From a virus: 24,861 bases of DNA. How positions within the stretch are numbered: the stretch's first letter is position 1; every line of letters starts with the position of its first letter. The stretch is taken from positions 1-24,861 of the IMG/VR virus record IMGVR_UViG_3300032397_000074; one strand, written 5' to 3'. The translations under genes and the position numbers were made by a program. The notes under the pieces were generated by a model. That model saw only the letters and a program-made list of their open reading frames with translations, ran no database searches and was not told where the DNA came from. Shown here in pieces: positions 1 through 21,251 of this stretch.

Positions 1-2100
1 CCGACGCTGGAGCCGGAGGACCTACGCTGGATGTGGGCCGGGAACATGTATACCGCTGGTAATCGGATCTTGTACTCCCAACCGCACGACGGGAGCCTGA
101 TCTACAGCCGCTGGATTCTCGACCCGGACGACGCCGAGCTCGCCTACGAGCTGGAGGACCTGGAACAGGACGCCCTCCACCAGCTGCGAATGATGCAGCG
201 CGACTACCGCGTCCTCCCAAAGCTCGGAGAGTCCGAGATCGTGGTCGGCCCGGACCACCTGAAGGGGTGCCGGCTGGTCGTCGAGAACATTGAGGACGAT
301 CAGGCCGATGCGGCTAGTAATTTTTATCGGCTTATCAAGAAACTCGGCCGAGGTCACCGGGTAGAGTACGAACGGTTCGTGGCGGAATTCCTAGAGGCTT
401 GTGACCGCTTCGGCGAGGGCATGGAAGATGAAGATTCCAATGATAATTGTTACGCTGCTATCAACGACATCAACGACATTGCCGATGAACTAGCGGAGTT
501 CCTTCAAAGTCTTGACAGCCCACCACCTAGGGGAGATCGAGCCTACCTGGACGACAAGGAGAACAAGTGGGAGTCCGCTCTGGCCGAGGGTCGGGACGAG
601 GACGCCGCGCAGGCGGGGATCGAGTTCGAACACTGGGTCAAGAAGCTCCCGACGGAGGTCGACGAGCGGATGCGGGGCGAGTTCGACGCGGCCTTCGACG
701 AGTTCGAGAGGATCTACTTCGAGTGGCAGCTCGGCGGGCCACGGGCTTCGGCCGGCGCGGTGGTGGACGCGGTCGACAAGCTGTGGGGGATCGCCAAGCT
801 CGCCGCCGACTACATCAAGGCGCACGGGGTCGCCCCGAGGGCCCTTCGGCGGCCGAGGGAGCGCCCCTACACCGGGGAGGGGGACCTCGACGAGTCCAGG
901 ATGCACTACCAGTGGACCCGGGGGCAGGAGGAGTGGGACGCCCGCGTCGCCCGGAAGATCGCCCTGGAGAAGGAGCGCCTCCCCGAGGCCCTGATCCACA
1001 TCCAGTGCCGGATGCGCAACAACAGGGTGGCGTGGTGCCAGGTGGTGGAGCAGTACGAGATCCCCCACGACAGCGTCAGGCCGATACTGGACGTGGAGGG
1101 GCCGCTCCCCGAGGACCTGCGGAGGGAGGATCCCCGCAACTCGCTGGTGGTGGACGTCGTGCGCATCCCCGTGCCGGACGTCCCGAAGGGGGTCTTCCTG
1201 GCCGACCTCCCGCCCCTCATGCCGATCAACAGCGTCCGCTGGATCCCCGTGAAGGGGAACAAGACCCGCGGTTTCAGCGCCTCCAAGGGGTCCGGCACCT
1301 ACCAGCGGTGGGTGACCGACCCCGGCTTGCTGGAGCAGGAGCTGGAGGACCTCCAGAACGACGCCCTCGACCTGATGCGCATCAAGCAGCGGGACGGCAA
1401 CGTCGTCCCGGGCAAGCCGAAGAACGACTGGAAGCGGTACTACCCCGACGACCCTCCCGACGCCTTCGACTACCAGCGGAAGCCGCCCGCCGCGGAGTCC
1501 AGCCCGCGCCAGCGGCTACTCCCGGACGCCGACCCGCACCACCCGCGTCGGAAGAAGATCCCGCGGAAGGACCCGGACGAGCAGCCTGACGAGGGGGACG
1601 ACACCTCGGACGTCATCTACGGGACGAGGGTGGACTCCGCGGCGCTGGCCGACCTCCACGCCGCGGTGGAGGCAGTGCTCGACCGTCCGGATGTCATCCA
1701 GATGGACGTCCCGCTTTTGATTCGGGTGATGGAGTTTTCCCGGGAGGATGCCAAGGACGATCAGACCCTCCACCGCGCCGCGGAGAGGATGACCGCCGCC
1801 ATGGCGGCCGGTAACGTGCTTACTATGGCCGACTACGAGGAGCTCCTCGGTTCATTGGTCGGGAAGTCCGAGTCCGGTCTCCGGCCCTTTATTACCGATT
1901 TCGGCTTCCCACAGCCAGTGACTGGAACTGGCGGAGAAACGGTGATGACCCTGCCGCAATATGGCGTGTGGGAGTACGATGCCGGGCGGCACAAGCATCA
2001 GGTGGTGGCGACGGGGGACAATCTCGAAACGCTCCTGCAGCAGTACGGCCTTTCGGCCGATGATATTGTGATCATCAATCAACAAGGAGATAGGAAATGA
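1..2100 (+). CDS. Large phage protein with internal duplication, 5' end outside window
   Basis: I do not recognise the family. The reading frame is open to the left edge, so the gene probably starts outside the window; the first ATG inside is at 31 (689 residues from there). Counting from that Met, residues 21-63 and 420-460 are copies of one module: both keep GS..Y.RW..DP, then ELEDL..DAL, then R..QRD. Residues 170-235 are acidic and look helical, 465-525 is a Pro/Asp/Arg-rich linker, and the last 50 residues look like a small folded domain. Codon choice is uneven: about 530-1680 uses almost only G/C-ending codons, while 290-520 and 1690-2090 do not, suggesting mosaic origin. The stop overlaps the next start (ATGA at 2097). 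A virion or late role is inferred only from its place upstream of head genes. Confidence 0.75.
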   Translation, partial: PTLEPEDLRWMWAGNMYTAGNRILYSQPHDGSLIYSRWILDPDDAELAYELEDLEQDALHQLRMMQRDYRVLPKLGESEIVVGPDHLKGCRLVVENIEDDQADAASNFYRLIKKLGRGHRVEYERFVAEFLEACDRFGEGMEDEDSNDNCYAAINDINDIADELAEFLQSLDSPPPRGDRAYLDDKENKWESALAEGRDEDAAQAGIEFEHWVKKLPTEVDERMRGEFDAAFDEFERIYFEWQLGGPRASAGAVVDAVDKLWGIAKLAADYIKAHGVAPRALRRPRERPYTGEGDLDESRMHYQWTRGQEEWDARVARKIALEKERLPEALIHIQCRMRNNRVAWCQVVEQYEIPHDSVRPILDVEGPLPEDLRREDPRNSLVVDVVRIPVPDVPKGVFLADLPPLMPINSVRWIPVKGNKTRGFSASKGSGTYQRWVTDPGLLEQELEDLQNDALDLMRIKQRDGNVVPGKPKNDWKRYYPDDPPDAFDYQRKPPAAESSPRQRLLPDADPHHPRRKKIPRKDPDEQPDEGDDTSDVIYGTRVDSAALADLHAAVEAVLDRPDVIQMDVPLLIRVMEFSREDAKDDQTLHRAAERMTAAMAAGNVLTMADYEELLGSLVGKSESGLRPFITDFGFPQPVTGTGGETVMTLPQYGVWEYDAGRHKHQVVATGDNLETLLQQYGLSADDIVIINQQGDRK

Positions 2101-2522
2101 GTCTCGCGACCGACAAGTACAGGAAGGCAATCGAAGAGAACTCCGCTCAGTTCCCCGGCGCGGACGTCGTACTCCACTTGATCGATGCGGTAAACGCAAC
2201 GGCCGACGCGGGCGCCAACGTCGCGAATTCGATCGGCGGCGTCGCGGCCGGCTACAAGATCGCCCGCGGGGTGGCGGCCGTTACCGGCACGGCCACGGTG
2301 GTCACCGGACTGGCGACGGTGGTGGCCGTCATCGCCACCCCGCAGAGCGACCCGGACGGCACGGCCCTGGCCGCCGTCTCGGCGACGATCGGCAACCAGA
2401 GCGGGGCCCCGGCCGCCGGTTCGGTAATCCTGAAGGCGTGGAAGATCACCGCGGCCGACAACGGCGCCCTGATCGCCGCCTCGGCCCCACAGAATCTTAA
2501 CTGGGTCGCCGTCGGGACCTGA
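2097..2522 (+). CDS. Small Ala/Thr/Val-rich phage protein, probable structural component
   Basis: This 141-residue protein starts at an ATG overlapping the upstream TGA, with a strong AAGGAG seven bases upstream. The first 70 residues are helical-looking and Ala-rich. The second half has repeated short beta-type stretches (TGTATVVTGLATV, then a GSVILKAWK stretch, ending in NWVAVGT). From memory this TGLATV...LKxWK...NWxAxGT pattern recurs in small phage proteins near structural genes, but I cannot name a family. No membrane segment or signal peptide is convincing, because the hydrophobic stretch 60-80 is broken by Thr/Gly and reads as beta strands. A decoration or appendage role is an inference. 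Confidence 0.75.
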   Translation: MSLATDKYRKAIEENSAQFPGADVVLHLIDAVNATADAGANVANSIGGVAAGYKIARGVAAVTGTATVVTGLATVVAVIATPQSDPDGTALAAVSATIGNQSGAPAAGSVILKAWKITAADNGALIAASAPQNLNWVAVGT

Positions 2523-2528
2523 TTTCCG

Positions 2529-2738
2529 ATGACCGACCTGATTCAGGCAATCAGGGATCGTCTCGTCCTATCGATCTCCACCGCGGCGACCGTGGTCGGG
2601 GCAATCCTCTATGCGTCCTACGTCTGCTTCATGTGGCTGTGGTCGGAGTTTGCTCACGCCGCCGATGTAACGAAGGAGATCAACCGCATCAAACAGCAGG
2701 TGCTCGAACGGTTGAAGGTTAGGGGCTCGCTCCAGTAG
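2529..2738 (+). CDS. Small single-pass membrane protein
   Basis: This 69-residue protein has one clear hydrophobic segment at about residues 14-38 (rich in Val, Ile, Leu, Tyr, Phe, Trp), a short amphipathic N terminus and a charged, helical C terminus with many Lys, Arg and Glu. It lies six bases after the previous stop; only a weak GGGA ribosome-binding stretch is visible. Size and topology would allow a holin-like or spanin-like function, but no endolysin lies next to it, so that is not supported. I call it only a small membrane protein. Confidence 0.6.
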   Translation: MTDLIQAIRDRLVLSISTAATVVGAILYASYVCFMWLWSEFAHAADVTKEINRIKQQVLERLKVRGSLQ

Positions 2739-2786
2739 AGCGGAACCGGTTGAACGGAAGCGGCATTAGCCGCGCAGGAGTATTCG

Positions 2787-3266
2787 GTGAAATTCGCATT
2801 CATCAAGGACCGGGTGGTACAGGCCGACCCCGTGGAGGCTGGTTCTCCGCCGACGCCGCCGGATGGTCAGACGGTTGTGGAGTGCCCACCCTTCGTCAAG
2901 GTCGGTTGGATCTACACGGCCGGGGCCGGGCTGCCGGGCCGCCCGCCCGCCTTCATGCCTTCGGATGCTCCGGCCCTCGGACCGAAGCCTACGGTCGCGG
3001 ACCAGATCTCGCAGATCAGCGGCGGCGGTTTCCTTCGCAGGTTTACGGAGCCACAGCGGTCCCGTATTCGGAAGGCCGCCGCTTTGGAGTGGGCCGCCTA
3101 TCTCGCGGATCCGGCAGGTACGGGCGCTCCGCTCTCCGACTTCCTTTTTCTGCTGGTGTTCTTCCCGAATATCGTCAAGACCGATTCGTTGGTAGTCGCC
3201 GGGATGGTTGCGCTAGTATCCGTCGGCCTCCTGACGCAGGCCGAGTCCGACGTTATTCTCGCCTAA
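2787..3266 (+). CDS. Hypothetical phage protein, GTG start
   Basis: This 159-residue protein starts at GTG, six bases after AGGAG; a short GCGGC/GCCGC hairpin (2760-2773) sits just upstream of that site. The N terminus (MKFAFIKDRVVQ, later a GWIYTAG-type stretch) resembles the small N-terminal module found on many phage tail-fibre-associated proteins, where a strand carrying the KDG/VVQ-type sequence is followed by a GW.Y segment. This is a resemblance, not a firm assignment. A Pro-rich linker at 45-70 leads to a helical C-terminal half (85-159) with hydrophobic segments around 117-148 that could be helices of a folded domain or one membrane-associated helix. It is followed after one base by the next gene. 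Confidence 0.65.
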   Translation: MKFAFIKDRVVQADPVEAGSPPTPPDGQTVVECPPFVKVGWIYTAGAGLPGRPPAFMPSDAPALGPKPTVADQISQISGGGFLRRFTEPQRSRIRKAAALEWAAYLADPAGTGAPLSDFLFLLVFFPNIVKTDSLVVAGMVALVSVGLLTQAESDVILA

Positions 3267-3267
3267 C

Positions 3268-4302
3268 ATGGCCTCCCTTACCCTCGACACCGCCCGCCGG
3301 GTTCTGATCCTCTCCGTTCGTGGCAAGAAGGACCGTCTGCTCCGGGCTAAAGAAGGGGATCCTGCAGCCGTCTATACTCGGGCTCGCCAGATTTCGGAGC
3401 TCGACCCAGAGTCGGTCATCAAGTACCTGAACGTCCACTGTACTCCGGCCGAGATCGAGACTAAGTACGCACAGGCCAAGGTCGTGACCGGCAGCATGAT
3501 CGGCCGAAGGGCCCCGGCAAGCACCGAAGAGAGCACGAGGAGAGTGGTGGAGGACTCCGGAATACTTCCCCCATCGGTAAGGTCGGAGATGTGCAAAGCA
3601 GCACAAGGAGTATACGACGCGTGGGACCCGACGGGCCCTACCAGTGTCCGCGAGGCGATCGGCGACGCCATCGCCGCCGTACTGAATGACTCCGACATCC
3701 CGGCCGTCCGCTCCGGCCGCGACCGCCACTCCGAGGTCATGGCCCTCGTCGATGACGGCGTGTACGTGGTCGACATCCCCCGGGAGCTTTACGAGCGTTC
3801 GGGCGGTCGGGGCCGAGTGAAGGTCCCCGATGTCACTTTCGGCCCCGGGGATGTCACGGCTCAACGGATCGATGACGCCGCCGCGTGGCCCCGGTACTCC
3901 GGGGAGACGCCCGGCTTCGTCTTACAGAGGATGGCGGAGTCGGTGGCGGATCTCTTCCGGTCCGCTCGTCTCCCGGACGTCTTGCGCACCGGCTACGTCA
4001 TCCACTTCTCGGACCAAGGCCGGCGTACAGCCGTCATCGGTTACACGAACGGGGACGTCGCCGAGTCGGTGTACGGTACCTTCGACAAGACCGACCTGTA
4101 CGAGCAGTGGGACGACCCGGCCACCAAGGTCGAGATCGCCTCAGCCATACAGGACGCCCAGCCGACCCCGGCCACGTCCATCCTCGACTTCGAGACCTAT
4201 TTGCTGCAGTTCGATTCCGTGTACCTGTATCACAAGGAGACCGGAGAACTGCGGGAACTCACGGAAGACGAAGCACTCGCCGAACCCGGAGAAATGCAAT
4301 GA
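3268..4302 (+). CDS. Hypothetical phage protein, 344 residues
   Basis: I do not recognise this protein. It starts one base after the upstream stop, with no clear ribosome binding site, so translation may depend on coupling to the gene before. The sequence is mixed alpha/beta and soluble, without signal peptide or membrane helix. Residues 85-150 look helical; 150-185 contain short strands (DDGVYVVDIPRELYE). The C-terminal third ends in FETYLLQFDSVYLY followed by an acidic tail. Its TGA overlaps the next ATG as ATGA at 4299. A virion-related role is only suggested by position. Confidence 0.7.
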   Translation: MASLTLDTARRVLILSVRGKKDRLLRAKEGDPAAVYTRARQISELDPESVIKYLNVHCTPAEIETKYAQAKVVTGSMIGRRAPASTEESTRRVVEDSGILPPSVRSEMCKAAQGVYDAWDPTGPTSVREAIGDAIAAVLNDSDIPAVRSGRDRHSEVMALVDDGVYVVDIPRELYERSGGRGRVKVPDVTFGPGDVTAQRIDDAAAWPRYSGETPGFVLQRMAESVADLFRSARLPDVLRTGYVIHFSDQGRRTAVIGYTNGDVAESVYGTFDKTDLYEQWDDPATKVEIASAIQDAQPTPATSILDFETYLLQFDSVYLYHKETGELRELTEDEALAEPGEMQ

Positions 4303-4556
4303 AGAAGCCGTTGGAGATCGTTCGCCGCAAAGGAAGGAAGCTGGTGGAGGAGCAGTCTGTTTCGGACCCAGACGCTAAATTTCCCACCTATGGAGGCAAC
4401 GACCCAACAGTGACTGACCTTGGCGAAGAGCTCAGCGCCAACGAGATCGCCGCCGCTCTCGGGGCGCGGGTGGTCATGATGGCGGTCGTGGTCCACGAGG
4501 ACTCTGCCATCTTGGTCATCGATGGGGCGTGGCAACGAGCAATGCGCGACAGGTGA
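4299..4556 (+). CDS. Small hypothetical protein, translationally coupled
   Basis: This 85-residue protein begins at an ATG overlapping the previous stop (ATGA), with GGAG about seven bases upstream. The frame continues upstream as a long open shadow, but the ATG at 4299 is best supported by the overlap and binding site. The N terminus is basic (MKKPLEIVRRKGRK); the C-terminal half forms a likely helix (LSANEIAAALGAR) followed by strands with the hydrophobic stretches VVMMAVVVH and AILVIDGAW. No family is recognised. It ends ten bases before the start of the next, very large gene. Confidence 0.65.
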   Translation: MKKPLEIVRRKGRKLVEEQSVSDPDAKFPTYGGNDPTVTDLGEELSANEIAAALGARVVMMAVVVHEDSAILVIDGAWQRAMRDR

Positions 4557-4566
4557 GGACGACGAC

Positions 4567-7500
4567 ATGAAGAAGAGATCGCACAAGCAGCCCGCGGCCC
4601 GCCGCGAGTCCGGCGGATTCGGTATCGACGTAGCGGACGGCATTGCTGTCGTCCGGCCCCGCGGGGCTCCGCCCTCCGGCGTTCTCAACGTCATGGCTCT
4701 CGGGGGCGCCGCCGCAATGCGCCGTGCTCGCATCGCCGAGGACGACCCGATGCCGGGCATGTCTGCCGAGACGCCGACCGGCCTCCCCGACAACCCGGAA
4801 ACGGCGGCGTCAGCAGCCGCGGAAACGCCGCCGCCGGGGCCCGACAGTCCCGAGAACTTCGCGCCCGAGACGGGCGAGTTCACGATCGTCGACATTCTCG
4901 GCAACGAGGCCGGCTACAAGCTCGTCGAGCTCCCCGAGGACCACAAGCTCGGCAAGTTCGCCGTTATCAAGGACCCGGACAACCGGGCCGTCAAGGGCCA
5001 GGTCTTCCCGCACTTGTCGGATGTGGTGTCCACGCACGGCTCCTTCAACGACGCCCTGACCGCGTACCAGAAGTTCGTCAACATGGATTTGAAGCACGGT
5101 GCTCCCGAGGGCGGGGAAGAGCCCGGCGGGGAGCCGGCCTTTCCGGCCGCCGATCAGGAGCCGCGCCCCGACAATACTGCTGCGGCCGAGCCGGTCGGCG
5201 AGGCCGCCGTTATGGCTGATATCGAGTACCGCTCCCGCCTGTTCGAGGCTGGGGAGGGCGTCTGGCGTGTGATGTGCCGCGTCTCCGGCGGTGTCACTGG
5301 CACTCGGACGGCGTACCTGAAGGGTAAGGACGGTCAGGTACAGTCCTTTGCCAATCAGGCCGAGGCCGCCGCTGAAGCTGCCCGCTGCTTGCGGTTTATG
5401 AGCTCCGGCTTGCGTACTACCCATTTCGAGTACTGGGCGGTGTTGGATCGGGGCGGCAAGACCGAGTCCGTGATTGCCTCGACCGGCATCATCAGTTCCC
5501 GCGCCATGCTCGGGACGGCTGGCTTTCCGGCGCTCCCGCGCAAACCCATGCCCGGAGAGAAGGAAGAGGCCGTCGACGGTCTGGAGGCTTGGATCACCCG
5601 CAACGGACGCCCGATCACCCGAGCCGACGTACCGGAGGCGAAGGCCGCCCTCAGCCTGCGGAAGATCGACCCGATGGATCTCAACGAGGCCGAGTCGGAG
5701 ACCTACCTCGTCACGCTCTCGCAGAAGGACGAAGGTGCCCTGCGACAGGCAGGAGAGATCGACGTCACCCGCGGCCAGTTCAATATGCGGATCGACGCCG
5801 GGAATGTGTTCGAGTCGGCTGAAGGTCTCACGAGGCAGGAGATCGTGGACGGGCTCGTGGATGAGATCGGTAACGCCGACGAGGACGGCTCCATCGCCGG
5901 CCCGCTGAGGGAGTTTGAGAACGAGATCCGCGCCTCCGGGCAGGGCTTCTTCACGTGGGCCGAGATCGAAGTAGCGTGGGAGCGGCACGGGCTTCCGGCG
6001 GATGACCTCGAATGGTACCGCGGGATGGACATCGGGCTTGGGGAGACCATCAACGTCAAGAAGGGTGGCTTCCACAGGTGGCTCGGCAAGAAGGACGACA
6101 GCCCGGTCACCGGGAAGGACATCCAGAAGGGACTGCGCTCCAAGGACCCACACGCCCGGAAGATGGCCAACTTCGCCCGCAACGCCCGGAAGTGGAAGCA
6201 CGAGGCAGGCGGCCTAAATGAGCTCGACGGGGTCACTTACGAGATCGTCGACCTCGGCATCGACAGCCCATCCTACTTCCAAGGACACAGCAACATAGAC
6301 TCCGGTTGGGATGAGTCGGTCGTCGGTTGTGGTATCACACAGGCGGAAGCCTACGATGACGCCGTGGAACAACTCGCGCAGGAGGGGCATGACGTGGCGG
6401 CCATCGGCCTGCCCGACGGTTGGGGCAATCAGGACGAAGATGTCCCGGGACCGGGCGAGACGGACGATCCGGAGAGGGACGCCGATGATCCCGAGTACAT
6501 GCAACACTACGTCGCCATCAACTTTACCCCGCCGCCGGATGCGTTGAAAGGTATCCGGGCGTCCGGGCCCCGCGAGTCGGTCACCTACGCGGACTACGGC
6601 CAGTGGATGGCCGCCGCCGAGGCGAAGTTCGGCGCGGCTGAGCTCCCGGCCCTGATGCTCTGCCCACCCGACCGGTCTAGGCCCGGCTCCGGGAAGACAG
6701 AGCGGGTATGCCAGCTGCGCCGTGGTGACAAACTTCTTGGACAGTGGGACGGCAAGAAAGGATGGCTGGATGAGGCCGTTGGTGATGGGGGCTTTGCTGA
6801 TTGGATTGACCGGATGATCGGGAAGCTAGCAGGCGCTGCTGCCAAACGCGTCTATCGCACGGTGCCGGGGGAGCTAGAGAGCGAGACTCGGCAGCTAGCC
6901 GCGATCCTCGATCAGTGGTCGAGACGTTTCCCGGAAAAGCAAAGCCTAATAGGCAAGTGTCAGGCTGGCATACTGGATGCCAGCACTTCCAACGATCCGG
7001 AACGGTGCGTGGAGCTCCTTCAGCAACTGCGCTCCAAGCTGGGCCTGGGGGAATCTCTCCGGCTTGTCGACAAGAAGTTCTGCGACGGGCGTCTGGCCAA
7101 GGTCTACAAGGAGTCCGATACCGGCGAATACGTCGTTAAGTTTACGCACCCGGTGCGCGGGTACGAAGAGGCGGCCGACTACTTTACGGATGACTACGAG
7201 GACGCGGTCGGCACGGCCTCGCACTGGGTCAAGGACGACTGGAAGCCGGGAAAAGAAGAGGCATCCCTCCGCGAGACTCCACACGAGCGAGATCTGGAGG
7301 AGTTCCCCTTGTCGTCCTACGAGGTGGGTGAGCCCGGGGTCCCGGGCGGCTGGTACGTGCTGGACAAGCGCGGCTACGTGGTCCCGCAGTCCAACTCCCC
7401 GTACGCCTTCCAGACGGACGCCGAGACCTGGATCGAGGAGCACGGCCACGAGTCCGGCCTGGACGACCTGCAGGTGGTCTTCCGGGACGGCCCGGAACCG

Positions 7501-18912: not shown

Positions 18913-19794
18913 CTACTCGAATCCAATCGCCAGTTCGCGGATGCGCTTCTTTGTGCTCTCGATACGGAAGGTCGCTTCCTCCCACGGCTCCTTGTCGATG
19001 ATGCCCTTGAGCTGCGCCCGGACGAGACGATCGAGGTAGGTCGGAGAGAGGGCGTCGAGTTCCCAAGAGGACTGGCCGAATTTGCGAATGTACCCGGCGT
19101 ACCGGGAGTCGGTGGTCTTGGCGGGATTTTCGGGCGGGTTGACCTCCCGCACCTGTTCCATGTTCAGCGCGATGCGCCTCATGTCGAAAGGCTGCCCATT
19201 GCAGAAAAGCTCCATGCGATCGTAGAGATCCCGGGTCATGTCGATCCCGGACGGATCGTGGTCGCCAAGGTGGAGAACGATCGGAGTCTGCTCCCCTTCC
19301 ATAGCCGGCAGCAGATCGGACAGGGCAAACTCCCGGAGGACGCTCCCGGACGGATAGCCGCGGGCCGCGAGAAGCGGGACGTCGAATTCCCGGCAAACGC
19401 GGTCCAGGACGCCGACGAGGGCTTCCTTCTCCACGATGACGAAGACGCGGTGTGGCTGGCCGACCCACATGTCCATGTGGAAGCCTTCGGCCGCTCCCCG
19501 CATGATCTCGGCACCCGAGCCCCACCGGGTCCGGCGCACGAATTCGCGGGTCCGATCCTCCAGCGCGTCCCAGTCGATCAGGCCGGCCAGCTTGGCATCG
19601 TTGATCGTCGAGGCAATGCGCTTGTAGTCTTGCACCGTGTTGGGCGAGTACCCCCGAGCAACCATCTGGTAGTACAGCTGGCGGGCGGTCAGCACGAAGC
19701 CTTGCTTCTGGTATTCCTGGACCACACCGTTCATGACTTCGATGAGGTCGAGGACAGCGGGCGTGAACTTGCGGCTGATGTAAGCCTGCTTCAT
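18913..19794 (-). CDS. Orphan TOPRIM protein resembling Spo11/topoisomerase VI A
   Basis: The 293-residue product starts at an ATG that overlaps the upstream stop. Residues 34-85 (LTARQLYYQMVARGY, then a helix leading to IDWDALEDRTR) resemble the winged-helix CAP region of topoisomerase VI A/Spo11, where a tyrosine pair after Arg carries the DNA-cleaving residue; here Y41-Y42. Residues 116-190 carry a TOPRIM pattern: Glu122 in VIVEKEAL, then LGDHDPSGID with Asp178 and Asp180 for Mg2+. No B subunit (GHKL ATPase) is encoded in the window. Such proteins recur in phages but are poorly characterised. DNA cleavage or nicking in replication, repair or defence is inferred from the fold. Confidence 0.75.
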   Translation of the reverse strand: MKQAYISRKFTPAVLDLIEVMNGVVQEYQKQGFVLTARQLYYQMVARGYSPNTVQDYKRIASTINDAKLAGLIDWDALEDRTREFVRRTRWGSGAEIMRGAAEGFHMDMWVGQPHRVFVIVEKEALVGVLDRVCREFDVPLLAARGYPSGSVLREFALSDLLPAMEGEQTPIVLHLGDHDPSGIDMTRDLYDRMELFCNGQPFDMRRIALNMEQVREVNPPENPAKTTDSRYAGYIRKFGQSSWELDALSPTYLDRLVRAQLKGIIDKEPWEEATFRIESTKKRIRELAIGFE

Positions 19795-20315
19795 GATTCG
19801 GCCTTTGAGATATCCTGCTGAGTCGGTGGCCCGATCCTGGGCCGTTCCGGTACTTCGGTCGGCGGGAGCAGGTTCATGCGCAGCTTCTTCGCTTCCCTCT
19901 CGACAGCCAACATCAGGCGCGACTGGTGCTCCACCACGGGGCGCTGCGACTCGTCGTGCGGGACCACGGTCAGCTTCTTGCGCTGGCGGTGGGCCTTCCG
20001 GCCGACGAAGCGGAGGATACCGTGGGTGGCGCTGCACACCTGGACGGCGTCGGCCGCGTAGAAGTGCCGGCCCGGGGACGACTCCACCACGCACCCCTTC
20101 TCCCGGAGCATCCGCGTCCGCCACGCGTAGGTGACGGTGTGGAAGCGGGCGCTCCGCCACTCCACTCGCAGGAGCTGCTCGATCTCCGCGTAGGGGAAGA
20201 TGTCCCCCACCTTCGGGTCCGGCCACGTCTTCAAGAGCAAGTCGACGTCCGGCTTGATCGGCAGCCCTTCCTCAGGCCGCAGGTGTTCTACCCGTGTAGC
20301 TTGTTCATCGGTCAT
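19791..20315 (-). CDS. Winged-helix-like phage protein, possible DNA-binding regulator or replication factor
   Basis: The 174-residue product starts at ATG 20315 after AGAGGA. Residues 37-90 look like a winged helix: a turn (GDIFPYAEIEQLL), a recognition-type helix with ARFHTVTYAWRTRMLREKG, then a beta hairpin (VVESSPGRHFYAAD). A basic helical segment (105-115) and a C-terminal Pro-rich tail follow. I recall similar small proteins in phage early regions with varied annotation, so regulator versus replication factor is open. It lies directly downstream of the pentamer array and upstream of the TOPRIM gene, so it is a candidate array binder. Confidence 0.6.
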   Translation of the reverse strand: MTDEQATRVEHLRPEEGLPIKPDVDLLLKTWPDPKVGDIFPYAEIEQLLRVEWRSARFHTVTYAWRTRMLREKGCVVESSPGRHFYAADAVQVCSATHGILRFVGRKAHRQRKKLTVVPHDESQRPVVEHQSRLMLAVEREAKKLRMNLLPPTEVPERPRIGPPTQQDISKAES

Positions 20316-20355: not shown

Positions 20356-20366
20356 GGTCATAGACC
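20356..20366 (-). other. Conserved array hairpin, copy 3
   Basis: On the - strand GGTC-TAT-GACC folds into a four-base-pair stem with a three-base loop. It is identical to copy 1 and closes the third pentamer run. It lies 14 bases before the partial leader element at 20331-20341. Confidence 0.6.
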
Positions 20367-20436
20367 CCTTGCCTCACCTCGCCTTGCCCCGCCGTGCCTA
20401 GCCTGGCCACGCCAGATGCAGTAAAATCAGATTCTT

Positions 20437-20447
20437 GGCCATAAGCC
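20437..20447 (-). other. Conserved array hairpin, copy 2, with compensatory changes
   Basis: On the - strand this reads GGCT-TAT-GGCC. Against the other two copies, the third pair changes from U-A to C-G and the fourth from C-G to U-G, so all four pairs are kept in RNA while the TAT loop is unchanged. Such covariation points to selection on a folded RNA or single strand. Confidence 0.6.
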
Positions 20448-20522
20448 CCATGCCCCGCCAGACCCAGCCCCGCCACGCCCAGCCTCGCCGCGCCTCTCAG
20501 TGTAAAACGCATTTGATAAATT

Positions 20523-20533
20523 GGTCATAGACC
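20523..20533 (-). other. Conserved array hairpin, copy 1
   Basis: On the - strand GGTC-TAT-GACC closes the first pentamer run. The preceding GGCCT/GGGG end of this run can also pair with CCCCAGGC just after the upstream stop codon, so this unit can form an alternative long-range stem across the whole run. Confidence 0.6.
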
Positions 20534-20582
20534 CCAGGCCGTGCCTTGCCGGACCCCGCCATGCCCCGCCTAGCCTGGGGCA

Positions 20583-21251
20583 TTACTGCAGAAGGATGGT
20601 GGCCTCGAACGTGCCGTACGGTCCCGGCTTCTTGGGGGCGCCGGGACGCCAGTCGCCGATACCCTTGTAGAGGCCGGCGTACTCGAAGATATCGCGCAGG
20701 GTGGCGTCTGTGATCTGGTCGTCCCACACCGCGATGGACCCGGTCGCCTGCCACCCGGCGGCGAATTGCGGGCGTACCCGGATGTGCTTGTTGGCTCCTA
20801 CGGCGGCGCGTTTCACCAGCAACTCGAACCCGAGCGCCTCCGCGTAGAGCTTGTGTTGGGCGAACGACGGCTCGTCTTTCAATGCCTCCAAGTCCGCCCA
20901 CCGGATGGTCTGCCCGTTGATCAGCAGCGGCCACGCGGGTTCGACGCTCATCATCCCGCTCTGCGTCTGCGACTTGAACGTCTTGCCGCTCTTGCCGCCG
21001 GGGACCGGGACCATGGCGCCGCCCTCCATCAGCGACTTCATGATATTGGTCTGGGGGACGACGAGCGCCCCGCCGTCGTGGTACGTACATCCGAGCCAAC
21101 GCCACGCCGGGGTACGGTCGTCGCCGGGTTTGCTCAGCTTCTTGTTGGCTGGGTCGTCCTTCCACGCTTCCATGAAGTCGGCCCATTCGATGTTGTCGTA
21201 GTGCATCAGCAGCGGGGTCTTGCCGGTGATCGTTACGTCGTATGTCCTCAT
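20583..21251 (-). CDS. RAMP/Cas7-like phage protein
   Basis: The 222-residue product starts at ATG 21251, six bases after AGGAG. It opens with YDVTITGKTPLLMH, the first-strand pattern (T/V..TG.TPLL.H) seen in Cas7/Cas5-type RAMP proteins. Gly-rich stretches follow (MEGGAMVPVPGGKSG), then a strand with VKRAAVGANKHIRVRP and a late GLYKGIGDWRP motif, echoing the Gly-rich loops of that fold. I recall this family as common in phages without an assigned role. No other Cas protein is in the window. The gene ends two bases before the pentamer array, so RNA or ssDNA binding to the array transcript is a testable inference. Family recognition is by eye; the RAMP relationship is remote. Confidence 0.65.
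   Translation of the reverse strand: MRTYDVTITGKTPLLMHYDNIEWADFMEAWKDDPANKKLSKPGDDRTPAWRWLGCTYHDGGALVVPQTNIMKSLMEGGAMVPVPGGKSGKTFKSQTQSGMMSVEPAWPLLINGQTIRWADLEALKDEPSFAQHKLYAEALGFELLVKRAAVGANKHIRVRPQFAAGWQATGSIAVWDDQITDATLRDIFEYAGLYKGIGDWRPGAPKKPGPYGTFEATILLQ

Follow-up and report, generated by a model that had tools for sequence, protein, structure and literature searches.

The window analyzed here, a stretch of 24,861 nucleotides from a virus (IMG/VR record IMGVR_UViG_3300032397_000074), carries a short region in which three of every five bases are fixed and two vary, and the locus raises the question of what such a pattern is kept for. An earlier note on this DNA knew of no established description, a statement that is out of date since the publication of VIPR (April/June 2026), a phage-encoded, RNA-guided DNA-targeting system that is found mainly in phages and proviruses, is classified in a tree of seven types and has been proposed to predate CRISPR (PMC13142463). 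The system consists of a small RAMP protein, Vipr, and of vrRNAs built from 9-16 YNNGG repeats, whose GGY bases are fixed while the NN pairs are hypervariable (PMC13142463; bioRxiv 2026.04.26.720920). With a probability of about 95%, the array at 20578-20356 represents the guides of a VIPR system encoded by the phage. VIPR being already published, the locus is a divergent example and not a new kind of system; as VIPR is newly reported and proposed to be older than CRISPR, each clear natural locus helps to define it.

Organization of the Pentamer Array

The minus strand at 20578-20356 consists of three phased pentamer tracts, each of which ends in GG followed by a hairpin of 11 nt (GGYYTATGRCC). 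Read as GGYNN, the tracts contain 8, 9 and 9 pentamers (20575-20536, 20494-20450 and 20413-20369, all minus strand), which confirms the unit counts of the earlier note; read as YNNGG, they contain 9, 9 and 10 repeats, which is short within the published range of 9-16. In the latter register the repeat tract of vrRNA 1 occupies 20534-20578 (minus; NN = CA TA GG AT GG CC AA AC CT), that of vrRNA 2 occupies 20448-20492 (minus; NN = GC GA TG GT GG TG CT GG AT) and that of vrRNA 3 occupies 20367-20416 (minus; NN = CT GT CA TA AC GG AA GA GA AA). Among the 26 GGYNN pentamers, 23 begin with GGC and three with GGT, and the one GGT pentamer that had been described for each unit was found (GGTCC, GGTCT and GGTGA, respectively). 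Every unit closes with GGGG, and the NN pairs are unlike from unit to unit, also as described. A run of eight GGY pentamers was observed five times in the window, always inside the three arrays (0 expected based on 100 dinucleotide shuffles), and no further run of four or more pentamers is present elsewhere within the window.

The array occupies the interval from the stop of the open reading frame at 20583-21251 to the start of that at 19791-20315, both on the minus strand, and is therefore intergenic, which agrees with the earlier description of the region as non-coding; as a small correction to that description, pentamers and hairpins are on the minus strand, the strand of both flanking genes. 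In both AT-rich spacers (20522-20493 and 20436-20417, minus), TTTTAC occurs just ahead of the following tract (GTTTTACACTGA, ATTTTACTGCA) and may belong to a processing site or a promoter. A scan for sigma-70 promoters and terminators found none, and a search of Rfam gave no match at the gathering threshold. No near-identical direct repeats of the CRISPR type are common to the units, and a tandem repeat finder reports only a weak local period of 15 nt. A CRISPR-Cas array does not fit the locus: the units share no conserved repeat, and the flanking proteins match no Cas family in PADLOC or NCBIfam.

The Gene Upstream of the Array

The open reading frame that adjoins the array on its upstream side (20583-21251, minus) encodes a protein of 222 amino acids that is a Vipr by sequence, profile and structural model, and thus the predicted vrRNA-binding RAMP subunit. 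It belongs to phrog_4652 (7.5e-15), the same PHROG as the Vipr of phage SUSP1 (1.4e-96), whereas searches of Pfam, NCBIfam and PADLOC returned no match. The two proteins share 23% identity by BLASTP (E = 3e-9), and among phage genomes tblastn retrieves SUSP1 together with numerous functionally uncharacterized proteins of coliphages, mycobacteriophages and Gordonia phages. A profile built from 25 homologues of uncultivated viruses, with the SUSP1 sequences left out, matched exactly one entry among the PDB sequences, 36PP "SUSP1 Vipr protein" (1.5e-55). The AlphaFold2 model has a pLDDT of 93.8 and a pTM of 0.88, and almost all Foldseek matches listed for it are Class 1 CRISPR RAMP complexes of the Cas7/Csm3 type (best E = 9e-6) with TM-scores of 0.4-0.5 that fit a distant relation of the modeled fold to RAMPs. 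A G-rich stretch near the C-terminus (GIGDWRPG...GPYG) is conserved among the Vipr homologues and may correspond to the glycine-rich loop of RAMPs. An explanation of the DGR type, with adenine mutagenesis of GGCAA, had also been considered and was dropped after the vipr gene was found.

The nature of this protein bears on a second explanation of the five-base period, an attenuator in which a ring-shaped protein like TRAP contacts one RNA triplet in each five-base step and regulates the gene that follows. TRAP is an 11-mer ring that binds GAG/UAG triplets separated by spacers of 2-3 nt, a similar period. However, the protein encoded next to the array has a RAMP fold and not that of TRAP, the fixed triplet is GGY and not GAG/UAG, and the number of units ranges from 7 to more than 20 across loci, so that a TRAP-like attenuator is extremely improbable. 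A guide array bound by Vipr is the preferred reading, and two of the roles suggested earlier, a scaffold for a protein that contacts RNA every five bases and a regulatory RNA, come close to it, as the published system threads such an RNA through RAMP subunits.

Linkage of Arrays and Vipr Genes across Viruses

A scan of IMG/VR for the DNA pattern alone (seven phased GGC triplets) recovered at least 120 stretches (L009-L128), many of which hold several tracts with differing NN content. A Vipr homologue is encoded within the stretch examined in 82 of these loci, in 80 of them on the strand of the array, compared with none of 21 control loci fetched by unrelated patterns, and the median distance between reading frame and array in the pattern-fetched loci listed is about 24 nt. 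The earlier proposal could have failed if such runs occurred at random without linked features; instead, a vipr gene accompanies most of them. The 38 listed loci without a Vipr match include microsatellites and short fragments, and the resulting 68% is therefore a lower bound for true arrays. Starting from the protein, a GGYNN array was found beside vipr in all four of the closest relatives of the window Vipr (62-70% identity), and the SUSP1 locus contains GGYNN tracts both upstream and downstream of vipr.

The same data bear on the possibility that the array is a G-quadruplex, an R-loop or replication-origin element, or a simple-sequence expansion. The RNA-like strand is indeed G-rich, and a few of the pattern matches in other contigs are plain microsatellites (e.g., L027, L037 and L100), but the NN pairs are diverse, a conserved hairpin ends each unit and the arrays are linked to one protein family on one strand. 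This explanation has almost no probability left, and the corresponding suggestions of the earlier note (G-quadruplex, R-loop, replication initiation) found no support. Some of the Vipr-negative loci (e.g., L013, L032, L044, L084, L112 and L113) carry diverse arrays and may hold a more divergent Vipr or a vipr gene outside the stretch that was examined. With at least 120 IMG/VR stretches recovered, GGYNN arrays are abundant among uncultivated viruses, and the pentamer pattern alone is enough to retrieve VIPR loci of uncultivated phages at scale, a recognizable Vipr being present in 82 of those listed.

The 3' Tail Hairpin

The vrRNA of the published system ends in an invariable structured 3' tail, for which a pseudoknot has been claimed in the SUSP1 clade only (PMC13142463). 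The hairpin that had been noted after each unit of the window was present in all three at an identical position: GGTC-TAT-GACC in vrRNA 1 (20523-20533, minus; GGTCTATGACC) and vrRNA 3 (20356-20366, minus; GGTCTATGACC), and GGCT-TAT-GGCC, with a compensated change in the stem, in vrRNA 2 (20437-20447, minus; GGCTTATGGCC). Because the loop consists only of TAT (3 nt), a pseudoknot of the SUSP1 type cannot form in these tails.

A stem of at least four pairs with a loop of 3-5 nt directly follows 11 of the 13 arrays of the Vipr sub-lineage to which the window belongs, compared with 20% of control positions, and the stems of the sub-lineage vary in a compensated manner (GGTC/GACC, GGCT/GGCC, GGCT/AGCC, GGCC/GGCC, GTTC/GAAC, GCTG/CAGC, GCGC/GCGC and GCCC/GGGC). 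Across all array loci the enrichment of an immediate hairpin is absent (22% vs. 18% in controls), and the immediate hairpin is therefore a feature of the sub-lineage while other types use other tails. Within the published classification the system of the window is probably type II-like with a minimal tail. Its divergent Vipr, three short guides and very small tail may show the minimum that a vrRNA needs.

A Candidate Accessory Gene and the Genomic Context

The open reading frame downstream of the array (19791-20315, minus; 174 amino acids) is a candidate vap (VIPR accessory) gene based on co-conservation, a distant profile match and a structural model. Clear homologues were found only downstream of a Vipr of the same sub-lineage, in six loci (L129, L130, L131, L132, L097 and L066), and an hhalign comparison of its profile with that of the SUSP1-type Vap1 gives a probability of 88% (E = 3.4e-6), a distant similarity. 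The protein has no match to phrog_5926, and neither flanking protein matches a Cas family in PADLOC or NCBIfam. Its model (pLDDT 82) points to a winged helix and, toward the C-terminus, long helices; the Foldseek matches are weak, with a DNA-binding protein ranked first. The product is probably a winged-helix DNA-binding protein and the gene a candidate distant relative of vap1. Taken together, the vipr-type RAMP gene is followed on its own strand by the three vrRNA-type tracts, each with its hairpin tail, and then by the vap-like gene.

The window is a fragment of a tailed phage, as it also carries genes for a portal, a head maturation protease and a major head protein. Downstream of the vap-like gene, 18913-19821 (minus) encodes a phage topoisomerase-family protein (phrog_6247, 1.7e-114) whose counterparts in Pseudomonas and Salmonella phages of about 57-61 kb share 54-58% identity with it, a hint, though not proof, of a proteobacterial host.

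Guide Composition and Possible Targets

The NN dinucleotides of a vrRNA recognize double-stranded DNA with one base skipped between pairs, and the SUSP1 complex represses transcription, its natural targets being mostly satellites or prophages (PMC13142463). By analogy with SUSP1, the array would be transcribed and each repeat tract with its tail would yield one vrRNA, along whose GGY pentamers several Vipr subunits would load. The NN dinucleotides would pair with double-stranded DNA of the form NNxNNxNN, the skipped base usually being the wobble position of a codon, and the complex might then repress a competing phage, prophage or satellite or disable it in some other way, with the three guides addressing three different sites. 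Since the guide information resides in the NN pairs, the earlier note was right to infer that selection acts on the pattern rather than on the individual letters.

Of six registers compared over 349 tracts, that of codon positions 1-2 gives the highest correlation with the NN composition (r = 0.59; the remaining five reach no more than 0.31). This is in line with the published rule that the wobble position is skipped, although a depletion of C after GGC could contribute to the correlation. When the guides of all loci were compared with the DNA of the loci at skips of 0-3, a skip of 1 was only marginally best, which is not convincing.

The three guides were decoded with the published 1-nt skip and searched against IMG/VR viral contigs, guides 1 and 3 also against GTDB representatives. 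None of them has a full-length match in wobble phase in IMG/VR. Guide 3 (20 bases) matches neither viral contigs nor GTDB representatives and, when shortened to 16 bases, matches mainly one gene of closely related phages, while guide 2 (18 bases) has one viral match that is out of wobble phase. Guide 1 has no match in GTDB representatives at 18 bases; at 16 bases (8 of 9 NN pairs) it matches six viral contigs, three of which are mutually divergent family A DNA polymerases that are matched at motif B (YG[IM]GP[KN]TL) in wobble phase. A decoy with the dinucleotides of guide 1 in reversed order gave 23 matches, 21 of them in wobble phase and mostly within a tail-fibre-like repeated motif (LTNPG[IM]GY). 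As the decoy matches are equally good, short degenerate patterns easily find conserved protein motifs, and motif B was not accepted as a real target of guide 1: the match does not exceed the decoy and is a lead only.

That no natural target was established in IMG/VR or the GTDB representatives would also be expected if the VIPR array persisted chiefly as a self-regulatory element or a relic, such as one that binds Vipr to control the expression of vipr and vap without targeting foreign DNA, and the position of the array between the two genes would suit such a role. However, competing phages are poorly sampled, so that an absence of targets is to be expected, and the exact phase, the differing NN pairs in all three units and the intact vipr reading frame suggest that the guides are in use. 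The resemblance of NN to codon positions 1-2, with the confounder given above, likewise speaks against a purely regulatory array or relic, which is improbable.

Comparison with Related Systems

The closest described relative of the window system, the SUSP1 VIPR (PMC13142463; Vipr = PDB 36PP), is likewise phage-encoded and shares the phrog_4652 Vipr, the YNNGG vrRNAs with hypervariable NN, the structured 3' tail and, as a candidate, a Vap1-like neighbor. It differs in that the window Vipr, beyond its low identity of 23%, is about 27 amino acids longer, in that all three vrRNAs of the window lie between vipr and the vap-like gene whereas in SUSP1 a single one precedes vipr-vap and three follow it, and in that the pyrimidine of GGY is mostly C in the window and mostly T in SUSP1. 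Furthermore, the 11-nt hairpin of the window leaves no room for the SUSP1-type pseudoknot. The six IMG/VR loci that share the vap-like gene downstream belong to the same Vipr sub-lineage (50-70% identity to the window Vipr), with the array beside vipr and, in most, a hairpin tail as in the window, but most of them have longer guides (11-17 repeats), and in some the first hairpin is followed by another. It is possible, though rather doubtful, that the window and these six loci represent an undescribed VIPR subtype in which the vrRNAs separate vipr from a divergent Vap1-like gene, guides can be as short as 9 repeats and the tail is a minimal hairpin of 11-14 nt without a pseudoknot, with guide 1 of the window perhaps directed against motif B of the family A DNA polymerase of a competing phage.

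Class 1 CRISPR-Cas effectors (Cas7/Csm3) share with the window system the RAMP fold and RNA-guided recognition in which the bases are interrupted at regular steps. The window contains neither CRISPR repeats nor a cas operon, and the guide of VIPR consists of separated dinucleotides whereas that of CRISPR is a near-contiguous spacer. In one of the related loci (IMGVR_UViG_3300031958_000003, contig 1724-6645; L129:1724-5881 and L187:82-843), a type IV CRISPR effector module comes immediately after a VIPR locus with vipr, vrRNA arrays and a vap-like gene, in the same orientation. The module consists of Csf1/Cas8-like, Cas11-like, Csf2/Cas7 (9e-34) and Csf3/Cas5 (1e-32) genes and is followed by a PAPS-reductase/CysH-like gene (4e-20). 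It resembles type IV-B, and no CRISPR-like repeat array is present in the 12 kb examined. This arrangement of VIPR and a type IV effector occurs only once among the loci examined but is relevant to the link that has been proposed between VIPR and Class 1 CRISPR.
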